A stretch of 64,000 nt of DNA. Origin: Streptomyces sp. NBC_01707. Lineage in GTDB: Bacteria > Actinomycetota > Actinomycetes > Streptomycetales > Streptomycetaceae. Positions within the stretch are counted from its first letter, which is position 1; the number at the start of each line of letters is the position of its first letter. The stretch covers positions 2,108,001-2,172,000 of the forward strand of contig NZ_CP109190.1 in the NCBI RefSeq assembly GCF_041438805.1, read 5' to 3'. Under the pieces are notes generated by a model. That model made no database searches. It was given only the letters and a program-made list of their open reading frames with translations, and was not told the origin of the DNA. Shown piece after piece: positions 12,302 through 58,111 of this stretch. A program made the position numbers and the translations under genes.

Positions 12302-12648
12302 ACCTCTGCGTAGGCGGCGTCGCGCACGTCGGGGACCGGATGCTGGCGCGCCAGCCGCAGCTGGGTCCGCCAGGGACGGCGACATCGGCATGCGGCGGGG
12401 ACTGCGTCGTGCGCAGCCACCACCCGTCACCAGTGCCATGAACGGCCCGGTGAACGCTGTCCACGTTTCCGCCCGGCCAGGCGGCACAGGGCTCTCCCGA
12501 AATCCCTGACGGGGCGCACGACGACGGCTACGGCATCTCGCCGCGTCGCCGGAACGCCCGAGTACGCCCCGTACGATGACGCCCCTCCGCCTTGCGATGC
12601 ACCGCATCCGACACCGGCGCCGATCCACCTTGGACTGCGAGGCGCCCC
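12302..12648. other. intergenic region without recognisable gene
   Basis: Lies between the desaturase terminator and the convergent GMC oxidoreductase stop. Frames crossing it on both strands are arginine/glycine/proline-rich shadows without start signals or family motifs. No repeat or RNA structure was recognised. Confidence 0.4.
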
Positions 12649-51858: not shown

Positions 51859-53681
51859 ACCGCTCCGTTCTCCGGGGCGGGGGCGATCAGCCCCTGCCGT
51901 GTTGCTGTCGCCGCGAGCGTACGGTGTCCGGCCTGCTCGGCCGCGAGAATGTGCTCCTCGGGCAGGGCGCGCTGCCACCATTCGCCTGCTGCCGTGTCGC
52001 CGGCCTCGCGCAGTTCGACGAGCGATCCGGTGAGCCCGCGGCGGGCGGCGTCGAGTGCGGCGGGCGCGGGCGCCGGGGCGGCGATGACATGCACGGCGTG
52101 GGCCCGGGCCCGGTCGGTGGCGGCGAGGGCCCGTTCCAGCCGCCCGGTGGCCCGTCGGTTGGTGACGGCCATGGCGGCGAGAATTCCGACGGCGGCGCCG
52201 ATGACGGTGTCCAGGACCCGGTCGCCGATGAGCTCGCCGGCCGGGTGCGTGCCGCCGAACTCCAGGACGAGGAGGGCCATCGGGGTCACGGCTATGGAAC
52301 CGAGCCAGTAGTTACGGGTGATCAGGGCCTCTGCGGCGAAGTTGAAGAAGAGGCAGCAGCCGATGAGTGCGAGCGAGCTCGTCCGGGAGACGGGGAGGAC
52401 GGCGGCGAATACGAGCACACCGAGCAGGTTGCCGAGCGTGCGCTGCAGGGCGCGGTTCCAGGAGAGCGTGACATTGGCCTGGTAGAGGGAGGCGGCGGTG
52501 ACGATCGCCCAGTAGGGGCGGCCGACGCCGACGGCCATCGAGACATATCCGGCGAGGGCGCAGCCGATGAGGGCGCGGGCGGCGATGGGCAGCAGCGGGG
52601 AGCCGGGGGCGAGTGCGCGCAGAACCGCCCGCCGGGCGTCGCGTCGGCCTGCGGTCCGGCGCGCGGCGCGCTCGGCGTCGATCCCGAAGAGCTCCTCGGC
52701 GGTGCCGGGGGCGGGCGGCGGGGTGGGGACGGGGCCGCGGGCCCGGGTCTGCCGGGCCCAGGCTCGGAGCCGGTCGGGGCCGGCGACGCGCGCTTCGAGC
52801 TCGTGGTCGCCGGTGCGGGTGACGACGGCGGTGAGGGCGCGCTCGCTGTCGCGGTCCGCCGTGCGGGCGTGGCCACCACCGTGGGCGTCACCGACCGGAC
52901 GCCCGTGGACGCCGGGGTGCGCACCGAGGGCTCCCCGGGCGAGCGCGGCTTCGGCGTGGACGACGAGTCGCTCCAGCTCCCTGCGTACGGGGGTGGGGCG
53001 TCCGGCGGCGAGCAGTGTCTGCCAGGCCGTGTGGACGGCGGCGGCCGCGGCGTGCCGGGTGCGGTGCCCCGGGTCGTCCGCGTACGCGGCGGCAGCGGCC
53101 AGGGCTCGGGCGGTCGCGCGCCGCTCCGGACCCTCCCGGCGCAGCAGCGCGGGCCCGACGGTGACCAGCCAGGAGACCGCGCCCGCGGCCACGGTCAGCG
53201 CCAGGTGTCCGGGGACCTGGCCGAGGTGCTGCGGGGCGAACAGTGCGGCCGAGGTGACAAAGGTGAAGATCACCGGCCCGGGCGGTCCGATGCGGGTGGC
53301 GTCGCAGAGCACCTTCTGCCCGGCCGCGAGAAGCGCGCCTACGGCGATCAGTACGGCTGTCGAGTCGGTGAGTGAGGCCGTGACCAGGGATATCGCCATA
53401 CCGATGAGCATGCCGACGACGACTCCGGCGACGGTACGGGCGCGGCGGGCGTACGGGAGGCTGTGCCCGTAGAGCGCACAGAGGGAGCCGGCCATCGTGT
53501 ACATCACGAGGTCGAGCCGGCCGAAGGCGAAGAGCGCGAGATTCGGTACGGCGGAGGCGACGACCACGCTCAGCGCCGGCTTGAACCACATGTCCGAGGG
53601 GCGGGCCAGGCGCAACGGGCCGACCAGGGGAAGTCTGCGGACGGAGGAGGGCTGCCGGGTACGAATGGTTGAATCACTCAC
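51855..53681 (-). CDS. FUSC family aromatic-acid/fusaric-acid exporter-like protein
   Basis: A 608-residue membrane protein with two halves of about five to six helices each (about residues 35-185 and 365-490), separated by a long cytoplasmic region, as in AaeB/FUSC proteins. Examples are LDLVMYTMAGSLCALYGHSL, VVVGMLIGMAISLVTASL, and the second-half signature PYWAIVTAASLYQANVTLSW then RTLGNLLGVLVFAAVL. GTG start. Together with MarR it forms a compact efflux unit, probably for aromatic acids or phenolic compounds. Confidence 0.9.
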   Translation of the reverse strand: MSDSTIRTRQPSSVRRLPLVGPLRLARPSDMWFKPALSVVVASAVPNLALFAFGRLDLVMYTMAGSLCALYGHSLPYARRARTVAGVVVGMLIGMAISLVTASLTDSTAVLIAVGALLAAGQKVLCDATRIGPPGPVIFTFVTSAALFAPQHLGQVPGHLALTVAAGAVSWLVTVGPALLRREGPERRATARALAAAAAYADDPGHRTRHAAAAAVHTAWQTLLAAGRPTPVRRELERLVVHAEAALARGALGAHPGVHGRPVGDAHGGGHARTADRDSERALTAVVTRTGDHELEARVAGPDRLRAWARQTRARGPVPTPPPAPGTAEELFGIDAERAARRTAGRRDARRAVLRALAPGSPLLPIAARALIGCALAGYVSMAVGVGRPYWAIVTAASLYQANVTLSWNRALQRTLGNLLGVLVFAAVLPVSRTSSLALIGCCLFFNFAAEALITRNYWLGSIAVTPMALLVLEFGGTHPAGELIGDRVLDTVIGAAVGILAAMAVTNRRATGRLERALAATDRARAHAVHVIAAPAPAPAALDAARRGLTGSLVELREAGDTAAGEWWQRALPEEHILAAEQAGHRTLAATATRQGLIAPAPENGAV

Positions 53682-53700
53682 CCAAACACTTTAGCAGATA

Positions 53701-53712
53701 TTACACTCGTAA
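53701..53712. promoter_or_regulatory. candidate MarR operator
   Basis: TTACACTCGTAA (arms TTAC/GTAA) lies in a locally AT-rich stretch 20 bp upstream of the FUSC GTG, with ACACTT copies on each side. This position suits autoregulation by the MarR protein encoded downstream. Confidence 0.45.
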
Positions 53713-53824
53713 AACACTTCCTTCATCAGGCGGCGCGCTGGCCCCGCTCCCCGACCCGCCATAGCGTGCGAGACCACGGACCTCCACGCGTCCACGCAGT
53801 GACAGAGGGAACAGAGGAAACGCA

Positions 53825-54589
53825 ATGAAGCTCACCGAACCGGTGTCCGGTGGCCCCTGCTGGGTCGAGCTCAGCACGCCCGACATCGCGGCAGCCAAGG
53901 CGTTCTACGGGGCGCTCTTCGGCTGGCGGTCCGAGACCGACCCGCGCGAGGAGGCCGGCGGCTACACGTTGGCGCACCTCGGTGACGAGCGCGTCGCCGC
54001 ACTCAGCCCCGTCTATCAGCCGGGCCAGCCGCCGGCCTGGACGGTCTCGTTCGCGACCGAGGACACGGACGCCACGGTCGACAAGGTGACGGCGACAGGC
54101 GGCTCGCAGCTGGTCGGCCCGATGGACGTCTTCGACCAGGGGAGGTTCGCGGTGGTCGCGGACCCGACCGGCGCGGTGTTCTCGCTGTGGCAGGGCCGCG
54201 CCTTCGCGGGCGCCGACCTGCTGAACGAGCCGGGCGCGCTCGGCTGGGTCGAACTCGTCACCCGAGAGGCCGATACCGCCCTCACCTTCTACCCTGCGGT
54301 CTTCGGCTGGACGGTCACCGCGTCGGAGACATACCCGCAGTGGGGCGTGGACGGCGCCGATTTCGGCGGGATGCTGGTGATGGACGACAAGTTCCCGCCC
54401 GAGGCACCGCCGAACTGGCTGCCCTACTTCGCAGTGACCGACGTCGACGCGACCGCGGCTACCGCGCAGGGCGCGGGCGGCGAGCTGATGATGCCGCCGA
54501 CGAGCGTCCCGGGCGGCCCACGTATCGCGGTGGTACGTGACCCGCAGGGCGCGGTCTTCGGCATCTATCTGGCGGGCGAGGAAGGCTGA
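53825..54589 (+). CDS. two-domain VOC protein (paralogue of 14664-15464)
   Basis: A 254-residue tandem VOC protein. Domain 1 begins CWVELSTPDIAAAKAFYGALFGW and domain 2 GWVELVTREADTALTFYPAVFGW, each ending in an AVVxDPxGAVF strand. ATG start with GAGGAAACG upstream. It shares architecture with the other VOC gene in this window. Not linked by operon to pcaB downstream; the repeat element lies between them. Activity unknown. Confidence 0.9.
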   Translation: MKLTEPVSGGPCWVELSTPDIAAAKAFYGALFGWRSETDPREEAGGYTLAHLGDERVAALSPVYQPGQPPAWTVSFATEDTDATVDKVTATGGSQLVGPMDVFDQGRFAVVADPTGAVFSLWQGRAFAGADLLNEPGALGWVELVTREADTALTFYPAVFGWTVTASETYPQWGVDGADFGGMLVMDDKFPPEAPPNWLPYFAVTDVDATAATAQGAGGELMMPPTSVPGGPRIAVVRDPQGAVFGIYLAGEEG

Positions 54590-54828
54590 GGGCTGTCACG
54601 TAATCCCAGGTGGATCAGCGCGGCGTCGGCTGCGGTGCATCGCAAGGCGGGGGGCGTCCTCGTAGCGGGCGTGTTCGGACGTTCCGGCAACGCAGCGAGG
54701 GTGCCGTAGCTGTCGTCGCGCACCCGCCGGGGAATGTCGTCGCGCGGGGGAATGTCGTCGCGCGCCCGCCGGGGAATTGGGGACAGCCCACGGGGCGTCC
54801 GGCGGATCACGGCCGGGGCCGTCACCCC
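54590..54828. repeat. candidate dispersed intergenic repeat element with tandem 18-mers
   Basis: The sequence from about 54601 to 54730 (with GGTGCATCGCAAGGCGGGGG-type core) resembles, from memory, a repeat seen between genes in many streptomycetes; in antisense it encodes the recurrent peptide RCTAADAALIHLGLRDS. It is followed by a perfect tandem 18-mer GGGGAATGTCGTCGCGCG (54729-54746, 54747-54764) with a partial third flank CCCGCCGGGGAAT. It borders the PcaG relic. Confidence 0.5.
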
Positions 54829-54999
54829 GACCTGTCACCGGTCGCCGACAGCACCGTCCATGCCGCGCGCCCGCTGCTGGAGTCGCTGGACGCGGAGCGC
54901 CGGGCCACACTGATCGCGACGCCCACGGACCGGCGCAGCCACCGGTTCGACATCCGTCCGCACGGTGCCGGCCAAACGGTCCTCCTGGAGTTCAGCTGA
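54829..54999 (+). pseudogene. pcaG: C-terminal fragment of PcaG (protocatechuate 3,4-dioxygenase alpha)
   Basis: In frame up to a TGA that overlaps the pcaB ATG, the sequence reads LLESLDAERRATLIATPTD then RRSHRFDIRPHGAGQTVLLEF. PcaG proteins end with DPVL..LP..RRATL.A.......YRFDIRLQG..ETVFF.F, and pcaG directly precedes pcaB in actinobacterial pca operons. The rest of pcaG, and pcaH, pcaIJ and pcaF, are absent; the region upstream is the repeat element. Only about 45-57 codons remain, without the catalytic part. Confidence 0.72.
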
Positions 55000-56396
55000 T
55001 GTACGAGAGCGATGCCGGCCTGCTCGCCCCCGGGCGGGCCGGCTCCCCCGCCGAGGCCACCACCGGCGACAGCGCCTTCCTTCAGGCGATGCTCGACGCC
55101 GAGGCCGCGCTGACCCGCGCCCAGTCCGCCTGCGGACTCGCCCCGGCCGAGGCGGGGCGTGCGGTGACTCGGACGGCGGACGCCGACCGCTTCGACGTAC
55201 GTGATCTCGCGCTGCGCGCCCGCTCCGGCGGCAACCCGGTCATCCCCCTGGTCGTGGACCTCACGGCGGCTGTTCCCGAGGACGCCCGGCCGTATGTGCA
55301 CCGGGGTGCGACCAGCCAGGACATCCTCGACACGGCCGCGATGCTGGTCGCCTCGCGGACGCTGACAACGGTGCTCGACGATCTGGAGCGGGCGGCGGGC
55401 GAGGTGGCACGGCACGCGGCCACGCACCGCGACACACAGATGGCGGGGCGCACGCTCACCCAGCACGCCGTGCCGACCACGTTCGGACTGAAGGCTGCGG
55501 GGTGGCGTGCGCTGATCCTCGACGCCCGGGACCGGCTGAGTGCGGTACGGGCGTCGCTGCCCGCCCAGCTCGGTGGCGCAGCAGGCACATTGGCGGCCTT
55601 CTCCGCCTTCTCCGCCCCCTCCCCCATCGCCCAGGAGGACACCCCCGGGCAGGAGGGCGACGACGGGCAGGGGGAGGTCGACCTGCTCGCTCTGGTCGCC
55701 GCTTATGCGCATGAACTAGGCCTGGCGGAACCGGTGTTGCCCTGGCACACCCTGCGTACCCCGATCGCCGATCTCGCCGGTGCGCTCGCCTTCACCGCGG
55801 GCGCTCTCGGCAAGATGGCCGCTGATGTGCTCACGCTCTCCCGCACCGAGATCGGTGAGGTCGAGGAGGAGGAGGGTGGCGATTCGTCGGCCTTGCCGCA
55901 CAAGGCGAATCCGGTGCACGCCACGCTGATCGCGGCGGCCGCCCGCCGCGCACCGGGCCTGGCGGCCACCCTGTACGGCTCGCTGACTGCCGAGGACGAG
56001 CGGCCCGCCGGGGCATGGCACGCCGAATGGGAGCCGCTGCGCGATCTGCTGCGGCTCGTCGGTGGCGCGGCGCACGACGGCGCCGCACTCGCGGCCGGAC
56101 TGCGGGTCGTCCCGTACACCATGCGGGAGAACCTCCAGCTCACCGACGGTCTGATCGTCGCGGAGCGACTGGCTGCCGTGTTCGCCGACCGGATCGGCCG
56201 GGCGCGGGCCAGGGAGGTGCTCGCTGCCGCGGCGGAGCGGGCTCACTCCGAGACGACGGACCTCGCCGATGTGCTCTTCGACGTCCTGCGCGAGGAACCC
56301 GAGCTCGCCGGCCTCGATCTGGCGGAACTGACCGACCCCACCCGGTACACCGGGTGCGCGGGCCCCCTCACCGACCGGGCACTGGAACGCCGATGA
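54999..56396 (+). CDS. pcaB: 3-carboxy-cis,cis-muconate cycloisomerase
   Basis: A 465-residue fumarase/aspartase-superfamily enzyme that lactonises 3-carboxymuconate, the second step of protocatechuate breakdown. It has PYVHRGATSQDILDTAAMLV, AGRTLTQHAVPTTFGLKAAG and the family signature DSSALPHKANPVHATLI, then MRENLQLTDGLIVAERLA. There is a Gly/Glu/Asp-rich insertion near residue 215 (QEDTPGQEGDDGQGE). ATG overlaps the PcaG-fragment stop by one base. Without pcaHG its substrate would not be made by neighbours. An ATG overlapping its stop (56393) marks where the next operon gene once began. Confidence 0.88.
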   Translation: MYESDAGLLAPGRAGSPAEATTGDSAFLQAMLDAEAALTRAQSACGLAPAEAGRAVTRTADADRFDVRDLALRARSGGNPVIPLVVDLTAAVPEDARPYVHRGATSQDILDTAAMLVASRTLTTVLDDLERAAGEVARHAATHRDTQMAGRTLTQHAVPTTFGLKAAGWRALILDARDRLSAVRASLPAQLGGAAGTLAAFSAFSAPSPIAQEDTPGQEGDDGQGEVDLLALVAAYAHELGLAEPVLPWHTLRTPIADLAGALAFTAGALGKMAADVLTLSRTEIGEVEEEEGGDSSALPHKANPVHATLIAAAARRAPGLAATLYGSLTAEDERPAGAWHAEWEPLRDLLRLVGGAAHDGAALAAGLRVVPYTMRENLQLTDGLIVAERLAAVFADRIGRARAREVLAAAAERAHSETTDLADVLFDVLREEPELAGLDLAELTDPTRYTGCAGPLTDRALERR

Positions 56397-56465
56397 CTCC
56401 TCCGCTCGGCCCTGCCGCCTCTCGGTGTCGGCACACCGGTCCGGGCGGTCACCAGGCCGGAACCG

Positions 56466-57119
56466 CTAACGGCTGTCAGGACGGGCACCCCGACCGGCGG
56501 CCGTGCTCGCCCCCTCGCCCCGGATCCGGGCGTGGATGTGCATGTCGTGCCAGCCGTCGGCATGCAGATGTCCCCGCCGCCGGGTGCCCTCCAGCGCGAA
56601 ACCCGACTTGGTCGCGACGCGGCAGGACGCCTCGTTCATGACGGAGTGGGCGAGTTCCAGACGCTCGAAGCCGACCTCGTCGAACGCCCAGCGCGCCACG
56701 GCGGCCACGGATCTGGGTGCGACCCCCTGCCCACGGGCGGCGGGCAGGGTCCAGTAGGCGCATTCGGCCTGTCCGATGCCCAGCATCAGCGAGCGGAGCG
56801 AGATCCGTCCGAGCAGTTCCTCGGCTCGGTCCGGTGCGCCGTTCGTCGGGCGGACGACCGCCCAGTGGACACCGGTCTCGGCGTGCCAGGCGTCCTGCCA
56901 CTGCTCGATCCAGTCGCGGGCCTCGTCCCGGGAGTCGGCCCGCCGCAGGTGCCAGCGCTGGATCGCCGGGTCCGAGAAGGCGGCGAGAACGGCGGGGGCG
57001 TCGGTGCCCTCCCACGGTCGCAGGAGCAGATCGCCGGCGACCGGCAGGGCGGGCTGCGGACCTTCCGCGAGACGGCCGGAAGGGATGTGGGGCGGCACCA
57101 GGTAGGGCATGTCCGTCAT
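56466..57119 (-). CDS. GNAT family N-acetyltransferase
   Basis: A 217-residue RimJ/RimL-type acetyltransferase. It shows LLLRPWEGTDAPAVLAAFSD at the start, then ECAYWTLPAARGQGVAPRSV with the acetyl-CoA-binding loop (R/QxxGxG/A variant ARGQGVA), and GFERLELAHSVMNEASCRVATKSGF with the terminal conserved N..S..V..K.GF pattern. ATG at 57119 follows GGTGGGACG. It converges with pcaB. Substrate unknown; could be a ribosomal protein or a small amine. Confidence 0.9.
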   Translation of the reverse strand: MTDMPYLVPPHIPSGRLAEGPQPALPVAGDLLLRPWEGTDAPAVLAAFSDPAIQRWHLRRADSRDEARDWIEQWQDAWHAETGVHWAVVRPTNGAPDRAEELLGRISLRSLMLGIGQAECAYWTLPAARGQGVAPRSVAAVARWAFDEVGFERLELAHSVMNEASCRVATKSGFALEGTRRRGHLHADGWHDMHIHARIRGEGASTAAGRGARPDSR

Positions 57120-57244
57120 CGTCCCACCGAGGGGTGCCCGTCCCGGGCAGCGGCCGTGCGGCCGTCCTGGGGACAGATCTCCGCCCGCGCATCCGTACAC
57201 CGTGTACGGATGTGCGGGCGGTGCATGCCGTGCGGAAGGGGTCG

Positions 57245-58111
57245 TCAGCCGAGGCCGCGGGCATCCTGCTTGAGGGCGGTGTCCACGGTCAGTGCCGTCG
57301 CCACGACGAGGCTCAGCAGCGGTTCGGGCAGCTGGTAGTGGATCTGCAGCACGTAGTTGTCCGCCGTCGTGAACAGCGTCTTCGCGAGGCCTTCCCAGGT
57401 CTTGGTGATCCGGGCGATCTCCGCGTCGTTGTGGTCGACGATCGCGAAGTTCCAGGCGCGCCAGTTCTCCGCCTTGATGGCACCGATCTTCTGACCGTCG
57501 ACCATGATGGCGAAGTTGATCTTGCCGATGGCGTTCTGCTGGACGATCTCGCCGACGGCGCTGCCGTCCGGGCGCTGCACGACGACCCGGGACTTGATGA
57601 ATTTCGCCGGGCGGGTCAGAAGCAGCTGCGGCTGACCGTACGCGTCACGGATCTCGAGCTTGTGGGTGAGGTACTGGTCGATGCTGGAGACGAACCGCAG
57701 TACCTTGCGCAGCGCGCTCTGACCGACCTGGATGACCGAGCCGATCGTGTTGCCGTTCTGGTCGAAGACGCTGTACTCGTTCGTCACCTCGATCAGCTTG
57801 GCCTTCTGGTTCACGACCAGGACCTGCTGGTTGAAGAGCGAGGCGCCACCCGGGACGCCGCCCTGCTGCGGCTGCGCCATCTGCTGAGGAGCGAACTGCT
57901 GCGGCGCGGCCTGCGGCTGGGCGGCTGCCTGCTGGTACTGAGGGGCGGCCTGCTGCTGGGGCACCTGCCCCTGGCCCGGCGCCTGGGGCTGCTGTCCGCC
58001 CGCCGGGTTGGTGTGCTCGGTCCACTGGGAGCCGTCCCAGTAGCGCAGCAGCTGGGGCGCGCCATGAGGATCCGGATACCAGCCCGCAGATACGTTCGAG
58101 TGCGTTGTCAC
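57245..58111 (-). CDS. DUF2510 plus phospholipid-scramblase/LURP-one-like protein
   Basis: A 288-residue protein. Residues about 8-35 form a DUF2510 motif (AGWYPDPHGAPQLLRYWDGSQWTEHT read in pieces), followed by a Gln/Pro/Ala-rich linker (35-90) and a C-terminal LURP-one-related (scramblase-like) beta-barrel domain (SLFNQQVLVVNQKAKLIEV, NEYSVFDQNGNTIGSV, FVSSIDQYLTHKLEIRDAYG). Members are thought to associate with membranes. GTG start. Stand-alone gene of unknown role. Confidence 0.88.
   Translation of the reverse strand: MTTHSNVSAGWYPDPHGAPQLLRYWDGSQWTEHTNPAGGQQPQAPGQGQVPQQQAAPQYQQAAAQPQAAPQQFAPQQMAQPQQGGVPGGASLFNQQVLVVNQKAKLIEVTNEYSVFDQNGNTIGSVIQVGQSALRKVLRFVSSIDQYLTHKLEIRDAYGQPQLLLTRPAKFIKSRVVVQRPDGSAVGEIVQQNAIGKINFAIMVDGQKIGAIKAENWRAWNFAIVDHNDAEIARITKTWEGLAKTLFTTADNYVLQIHYQLPEPLLSLVVATALTVDTALKQDARGLG

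Follow-up and report, generated by a model that had tools for sequence, protein, structure and literature searches.

Genes left over when an operon decays are normally expected to die. Streptomyces sp. NBC_01707 has kept one gene of a pca operon for the breakdown of aromatic acids, pcaB, on its own, within a 64,000-nucleotide stretch of DNA that was analysed as a whole and is called the window here. Why has this gene stayed when its partners are gone? In relatives of the strain, the chemistry of the protein appears to be lost stepwise, and because the steps are visible across species, the birth of a pseudoenzyme becomes directly testable. We favor, with moderate confidence, the reading that the orphan pcaB was retained by selection after an operon deletion and that the PcaB of its clade has a further role that does not depend on its chemistry.

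The window pcaB is an uninterrupted frame, and its product scores 384.8 bits against the PcaB (CMLE) model TIGR02426, which has a cut-off of 355.75 (Table 1). The TGA of an upstream frame (54997–54999) shares a base with the pcaB ATG (54999–55001). The preliminary description had recognized this TGATG overlap and had taken the upstream frame for the C-terminal end of PcaG, which the alignments confirm. The fragment alone matches positions 145–192 of the 193 in the PcaG model TIGR02423 (E 4.8e-6), is likewise picked up by a six-frame search of the genome, and is 60% identical to residues 131–190 of 190 in the intact PcaG of a relative (E 5e-14). About 45 codons from the end of the deleted pcaG remain, overlapped by pcaB. 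All eight orphan loci described below retain GGAGTTCAG directly 5′ of pcaB, a sequence that contains a good ribosome-binding site.

The repeat-like stretch with tandem 18-mers that had been noted upstream of pcaB consists of two elements, one copy of a dispersed repeat and a tandem array of short units. A second copy of the dispersed repeat is located in the window at 12634–12512 (85% identity, blastn E 3e-30), and the two copies have an exact 17-mer in common, against 0.05 expected. Deletion driven by this repeat found no support, since the repeat sits in the gap of the window locus, yet was found in none of the seven other orphan loci. Weaker copies of the approximately 120 bp intergenic repeat occur in loci L103 and L128. 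Rfam gave no match at gathering thresholds in 53600–57300, and no promoter or terminator consensus was found at 54500–56600.

Table 1 Features of the orphan pcaB locus, in window positions.
Feature	Positions	Strand	Basis
VOC/glyoxalase-superfamily gene, upstream neighbor of pcaB	53825..54589	+	Pfam PF00903
Dispersed repeat of ~120 bp, one copy	54604..54725		blastn, alignment, exact 17-mer
Short tandem array, 18-mer x2.2 / 24-mer x3	54711..54777		Tandem Repeats Finder
C-terminal pcaG remnant, its TGA overlapping the pcaB start	54853..54999	+	TIGR02423 positions 145–192; alignment with intact relatives
GGAG within the pcaG remnant, probable ribosome-binding site of pcaB	54987..54990	+	Putative function
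Orphan pcaB, 3-carboxy-cis,cis-muconate cycloisomerase family, 465 codons (465 aa)	54999..56396	+	TIGR02426 above cut-off; purifying selection
Putative remains of the pcaDC (pcaL) start; its ATG overlaps the stop of pcaB	56393..56417	+	Position

The origin of the locus is seen in related Streptomyces. A search of the genus with PcaB gave a match in 171 of 246 genomes and was complemented by a scan of named genomes (best 80). The genes pcaH-pcaG-pcaB-pcaDC occupy the same site in seven genomes (G065, G053, G170, G029 and G052, loci L043–L047; S. silvae For3, L064; G362, L231). Eight others carry pcaB there without pcaH, pcaG, and pcaDC: Streptomyces sp. NBC_01707, G075, NBC_00154 (locus L058), S. 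atratus OK807, CB01580, DvalAA-43, JH14, and Ncost-T10-10d. Both kinds of locus are flanked by HK, MarR, FUSC, and mostly VOC genes, and on the other side by GNAT, scramblase-like or DUF3105 genes; each of the flanking genes is missing in some loci. The same-site operons of the seven relatives identify the window locus as an operon remnant and bear out the earlier proposal of a deletion on both sides of pcaB. No complete pca operon is present at the window site: of the genes of the source operon only pcaB is left, and otherwise the C-terminal PcaG remnant is all that remains. At the non-orphan loci examined, pcaH, pcaG, and pcaDC adjoin pcaB in 86 of 86 cases.

The borders of the deletions were delimited by blastn. 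Similarity to the intact locus begins 14–136 nt upstream of pcaB in the eight orphan loci and stops 1–23 nt past its stop codon; window DNA is homologous over 54863–56397, which ends 1 nt past the stop. The ATG at 56393–56395 overlaps the pcaB stop in the manner of the pcaDC starts in the aligned intact relatives. The sequence MTPPLGPAASRCRHTGPGGH, earlier suggested to hold the first codons of the lost next gene, is therefore placed right for a pcaDC start and is a possible vestige of it, but it is unrecognizable as PcaDC by sequence. Because homology does not extend beyond that 1 nt, the assignment is one of position.

The orphan pcaB is full-length in all eight loci (449–465 aa), and the pcaG remnants vary in length, with single-base gaps relative to intact pcaG in those of L062 and L063. 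The ATG of pcaB has been lost in L060, where a TTG start would serve. At L059, L061, and L042, the TGA stop of pcaG before pcaB reads CGA, so that the relic frame continues into pcaB, out of frame. The VOC stop codon lies 36 nt upstream of pcaB in L059 and 20 nt in L061, and a VOC-pcaB transcription unit may thus have arisen there by deletion. No VOC gene was found at L058, and in L060 and L062 it is reduced to half.

Orphans that are found by pcaB searches are survivors by selection of the sample, and a search with the neighboring FUSC gene served as a control. It covered 392 genomes, 204 of which had a match, and 20 loci were taken from the top of the list, leaving aside loci already in the set and the high scorers G126, G147, G178, G056, G245, and G320. 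One of the 20 has a complete operon (G362), and the site is devoid of pca genes in the other 19. In the locus tree, six of the latter cluster with the orphans, as one subclade, with a support of 0.565 for all orphans together with the six and of 1.000 for the six with the branch of L059–L063 and L042. Their position indicates that pcaB can be lost.

The preliminary description read the locus as direct evidence for pathway loss, and named a complete pca operon elsewhere, with its own pcaB, as one finding that would speak against it. Such an operon lies at 4.01 Mb: its pcaI, pcaH, pcaG, pcaB, and pcaDC each score above the model cut-off, and pcaJ, a transporter gene, pobA, and an IclR-type regulator were read from translations. 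Its PcaB is 70% identical to the orphan PcaB. The operon is a fuller version of the one that left the remnant, and its presence refutes the claim of pathway loss for NBC_01707. An internal deletion has reduced the second-operon pcaF to an in-frame ORF of 87 codons (C1:4011782-4012042; L012:6783-7043), roughly 70 from the N-terminal end and 15 from the C-terminal end; the corresponding operons of NBC_00154 and JH14 have a spacing and matches to the gene ends consistent with a complete pcaF. A pcaF-like gene at 8.616 Mb could stand in for the deleted one; it scores 468.6 bits, below a cut-off of 597 that none of 14 control genomes reaches. That pathway loss is still under way in NBC_01707 would agree with this deletion, as well as with the PcaG remnant and the missing pcaDC at the window site; set against the four second-operon genes pcaH, pcaG, pcaB, and pcaDC above their cut-offs and the pcaF-like gene, it appears very improbable.

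The pcaF-like gene belongs to a cluster (L160, C1:8608000-8627000) that also contains a pcaJ-like gene and a weak match to intradiol dioxygenase, with an apparent peptide-synthetase gene, identified by eye, nearby; a hydroxyquinol-type route is possible there. G000 and G075 each have a PcaDC-like fusion above cut-off that is not part of a pca operon (L158, C1:2530193-2531428, and L159) and adjoins apparent exonuclease III and metallo-hydrolase genes, by eye. In each of the seven genomes searched, a PcaDC match above cut-off occurs elsewhere than at the orphan pcaB site. PcaH scores above cut-off in four of the eight orphan genomes (NBC_01707, NBC_00154, CB01580, and JH14). No such match was found in the assemblies, several of them in many contigs, of G075, S. 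atratus OK807, DvalAA-43, and Ncost-T10-10d; the PcaH matches of G075 and DvalAA-43 are weak (47–48 bits). The four genomes without PcaH are thus G075 and those of loci L059, L061, and L063.

The selection acting on pcaB was estimated with IQ-TREE (GY+F3X4), with high GC3 making dS rough. Omega is 0.109 for the eight orphan genes, compared with 0.085 for six pcaB genes of intact operons at the site and 0.077 for eight other operon pcaB genes, and six neighbor genes of the orphans range from 0.063 to 0.145. Omega of 1 is rejected for the eight orphans (2ΔlnL 805.6), for the four orphan genes from genomes without PcaH (omega 0.113, 2ΔlnL 311.4), and for three catalytically broken genes, whose omega is 0.088 at 7–9% nucleotide divergence (2ΔlnL 217.7). 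The trio of window, L058, and L062 gives 0.105. Between the window and NBC_00154, pcaB differs at 11, 14, and 51 first, second, and third codon positions over 448 codons, and the pcaG relic at 2, 5, and 4 positions in 120 nt, a small count. The pcaG relics shrink and acquire frameshifts while pcaB stays under purifying selection. We rejected a pseudogene on the grounds of the full-length frame in 8/8 loci, the omega of the orphans, the codon-position pattern, and the pcaG relic as control. The earlier supposition that pcaB may be in decay or reused therefore does not hold in its first part for the window gene, which also keeps its catalytic residues.

These residues were compared in an alignment of the 120 proteins listed of 4783 matches to an S. 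atratus PcaB query with 94 DNA-derived sequences. The orphan clade (support 0.958) contains 116 rows, 8 from DNA loci and 108 proteins placed by the tree, some of them fragments; the 98 rows outside comprise 86 DNA loci and 12 proteins placed by the tree. Gene context and PcaH status were established for the eight orphan genomes, and the other rows of the clade belong to it by the tree. Rows shorter than 400 aa, including 2 of the 37 broken-class rows, were omitted from per-column counts. As a reference we used CreD, in which the variants S302A, S303A, K308A, N310A, H253N, and R341A are inactive in hydronitration (PMC13411527). The residues were mapped by alignment and loop sequence, with the offset set by hand, to S296, S297, K302, N304, H250, and R335; CreD is a lyase, and essentiality in it is thus no proof for CMLE.

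Among the matches listed, 46 of the 112 distinct proteins in the orphan clade deviate at one or more of the six CreD-essential residues, and none of the 96 outside it does. By group, the counts are 0/50 in clade A, 9/14 in clade B, 35/35 in the broken class, and 2/13 in the rest. Residues R335 and W340 are constant in every row. Within the broken class (35 rows of at least 400 aa), 7 of 14 CreD-tested positions are changed in more than 10% of rows, compared to 9 of 156 other near-invariant columns, with a p of 3.8e-5 that is a guide, since the rows are related. The same test in clade B was not significant (2/14 versus 11/156). Four loop segments were picked after the substitutions had been seen; the test on CreD residues uses positions derived from the paper and is the more trustworthy one. 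The position of CreD N310 is altered in distinct subclades (P0104, P0106, P0043, and the broken class), and more than one episode of erosion is therefore probable.

The window copy retains every one of the 14 residues mapped from CreD, and with them the catalytic SS-loop and pocket of PcaB. Its peculiarities are M299L, present in 51/51 clade A rows, and L136V, present in all eight orphans. An essential residue has been lost in 4/4 genomes without PcaH and in 1/4 with PcaH (JH14, N304I), too few for significance. The four PcaH-bearing orphan genomes retain more catalytic residues than the four PcaH-less ones. This difference, and the complete set of mapped residues in the window and L058 copies, both from genomes with PcaH elsewhere, is what plain redundancy leads one to expect: the orphan PcaB would be only a cycloisomerase, providing dosage or backup for a second operon, and the broken relatives would be dying slowly, too recently for it to show. 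For NBC_01707, simple redundancy explains everything, and the argument for re-tasking rests on the relatives. The broken class, however, consists of 35 distinct proteins, purifying selection is still evident in three of its genes after their divergence, and the changes are concentrated in active-site columns rather than scattered. As an account of the whole clade, we regard redundancy as unlikely. Catalytic residues missing from a protein that is still selected would mark a pseudoenzyme: none is missing from the window copy, and the three broken-class genes of relatives meet with continued selection in spite of such losses.

The orphan of NBC_01707 is best read as a retained second PcaB and probably an active cycloisomerase. 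A protein that is conserved despite lost catalytic residues in relatives suggests a job other than the known one. In the sister lineages, where protein-level constraint outlasts the loss of catalytic residues, the second half of the earlier supposition, reuse, is the better reading, and the protein is best described there as a pseudoenzyme derived from PcaB and conserved, or as one re-tasked to a putative function. The re-tasked protein could be a new enzyme, with the altered SS-loop and substrate pocket running a different reaction, perhaps together with a VOC partner. The broken class does have recurrent substitutions (K302R in 32/37 rows, D or G at 304 in 32/37, N79D in 35 of 36 scored), and the VOC gene lies close upstream of pcaB in L059 and L061. 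Close relatives in this class nevertheless differ at S296, the proposed general base (S 16, P 14, T 6, R 1), and the VOC gene was not found or is halved in the three orphan loci named above. A new reaction is quite improbable in our judgment, more so than redundancy.

We propose that the site once held an ancestral pcaH-pcaG-pcaB-pcaDC operon, flanked by the VOC gene on one side and the GNAT and scramblase-like genes on the other, and that the second pca operon, in the likeliest course, made this older one redundant. Deletions would then have taken pcaH, nearly all of pcaG, and pcaDC, and selection would have kept pcaB with its ribosome-binding site because its protein was doing something more. 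The orphan of NBC_01707 may supplement the PcaB of the second operon as an active cycloisomerase. Where protocatechuate dioxygenase is present, catalysis would be mostly kept; where it is gone, the SS-loop would erode and the rest of the protein stay. The extra role is likeliest that of a structural or ligand-binding tetramer, a pseudoenzyme, and less likely a new reaction. Superfamily members are homotetramers (PMC13411527), which makes a scaffold or ligand-binding role reasonable.

Several known systems can be compared with the orphan. CMLE PcaB (PDB 1RE5, 1Q5N) has the SSxMPxKxNP-type loop, in which the window copy has M replaced by L (M299L). The window orphan differs from it also in having no operon partners at its site, and part of the orphan clade differs in having lost catalytic residues. 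The solved structure that scores best by sequence for orphan PcaB is CreD (nitrosuccinate lyase, PDB 5XNY), whose loop and pocket residues are the same as in the window protein. A nitrosuccinate lyase was nonetheless rejected: the window PcaB scores 559.5 bits against NF052556, with a cut-off of 650, and the PcaB of the second operon is also below it (591.9 bits). PMC13411527 proposes SSxMPxKRNP as the loop consensus of nitrating enzymes, and the window loop reads SSALPHKANP, without the Arg.

Like PcaB, delta-crystallin/argininosuccinate lyase belongs to the aspartase/fumarase superfamily; delta-crystallin is an animal protein. One form of delta-crystallin is enzymatically inactive, according to a title cited in PMC2779060. 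PMC10211241 describes delta-crystallin as serving a structural purpose in the lens while being argininosuccinate lyase as well, and it provides a precedent within the superfamily. We tentatively suggest that a non-catalytic second function of PcaB in this clade outlived both the operon and its own chemistry, as a bacterial counterpart of delta-crystallin. With the same reserve, stages of PcaB that correspond to the intact enzyme, a half-eroded form, and a catalytically dead form may persist in living species.

No published report of an orphan or inactive Streptomyces PcaB was found among the matches listed, with subscription journals mostly outside the scope of the search, and PMC6904314 gave no hits for pca terms. 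Databases call proteins of the broken class cycloisomerases, for example P0001 from S. atratus; if the proteins are inactive, these names would mislead pathway prediction in Streptomyces.
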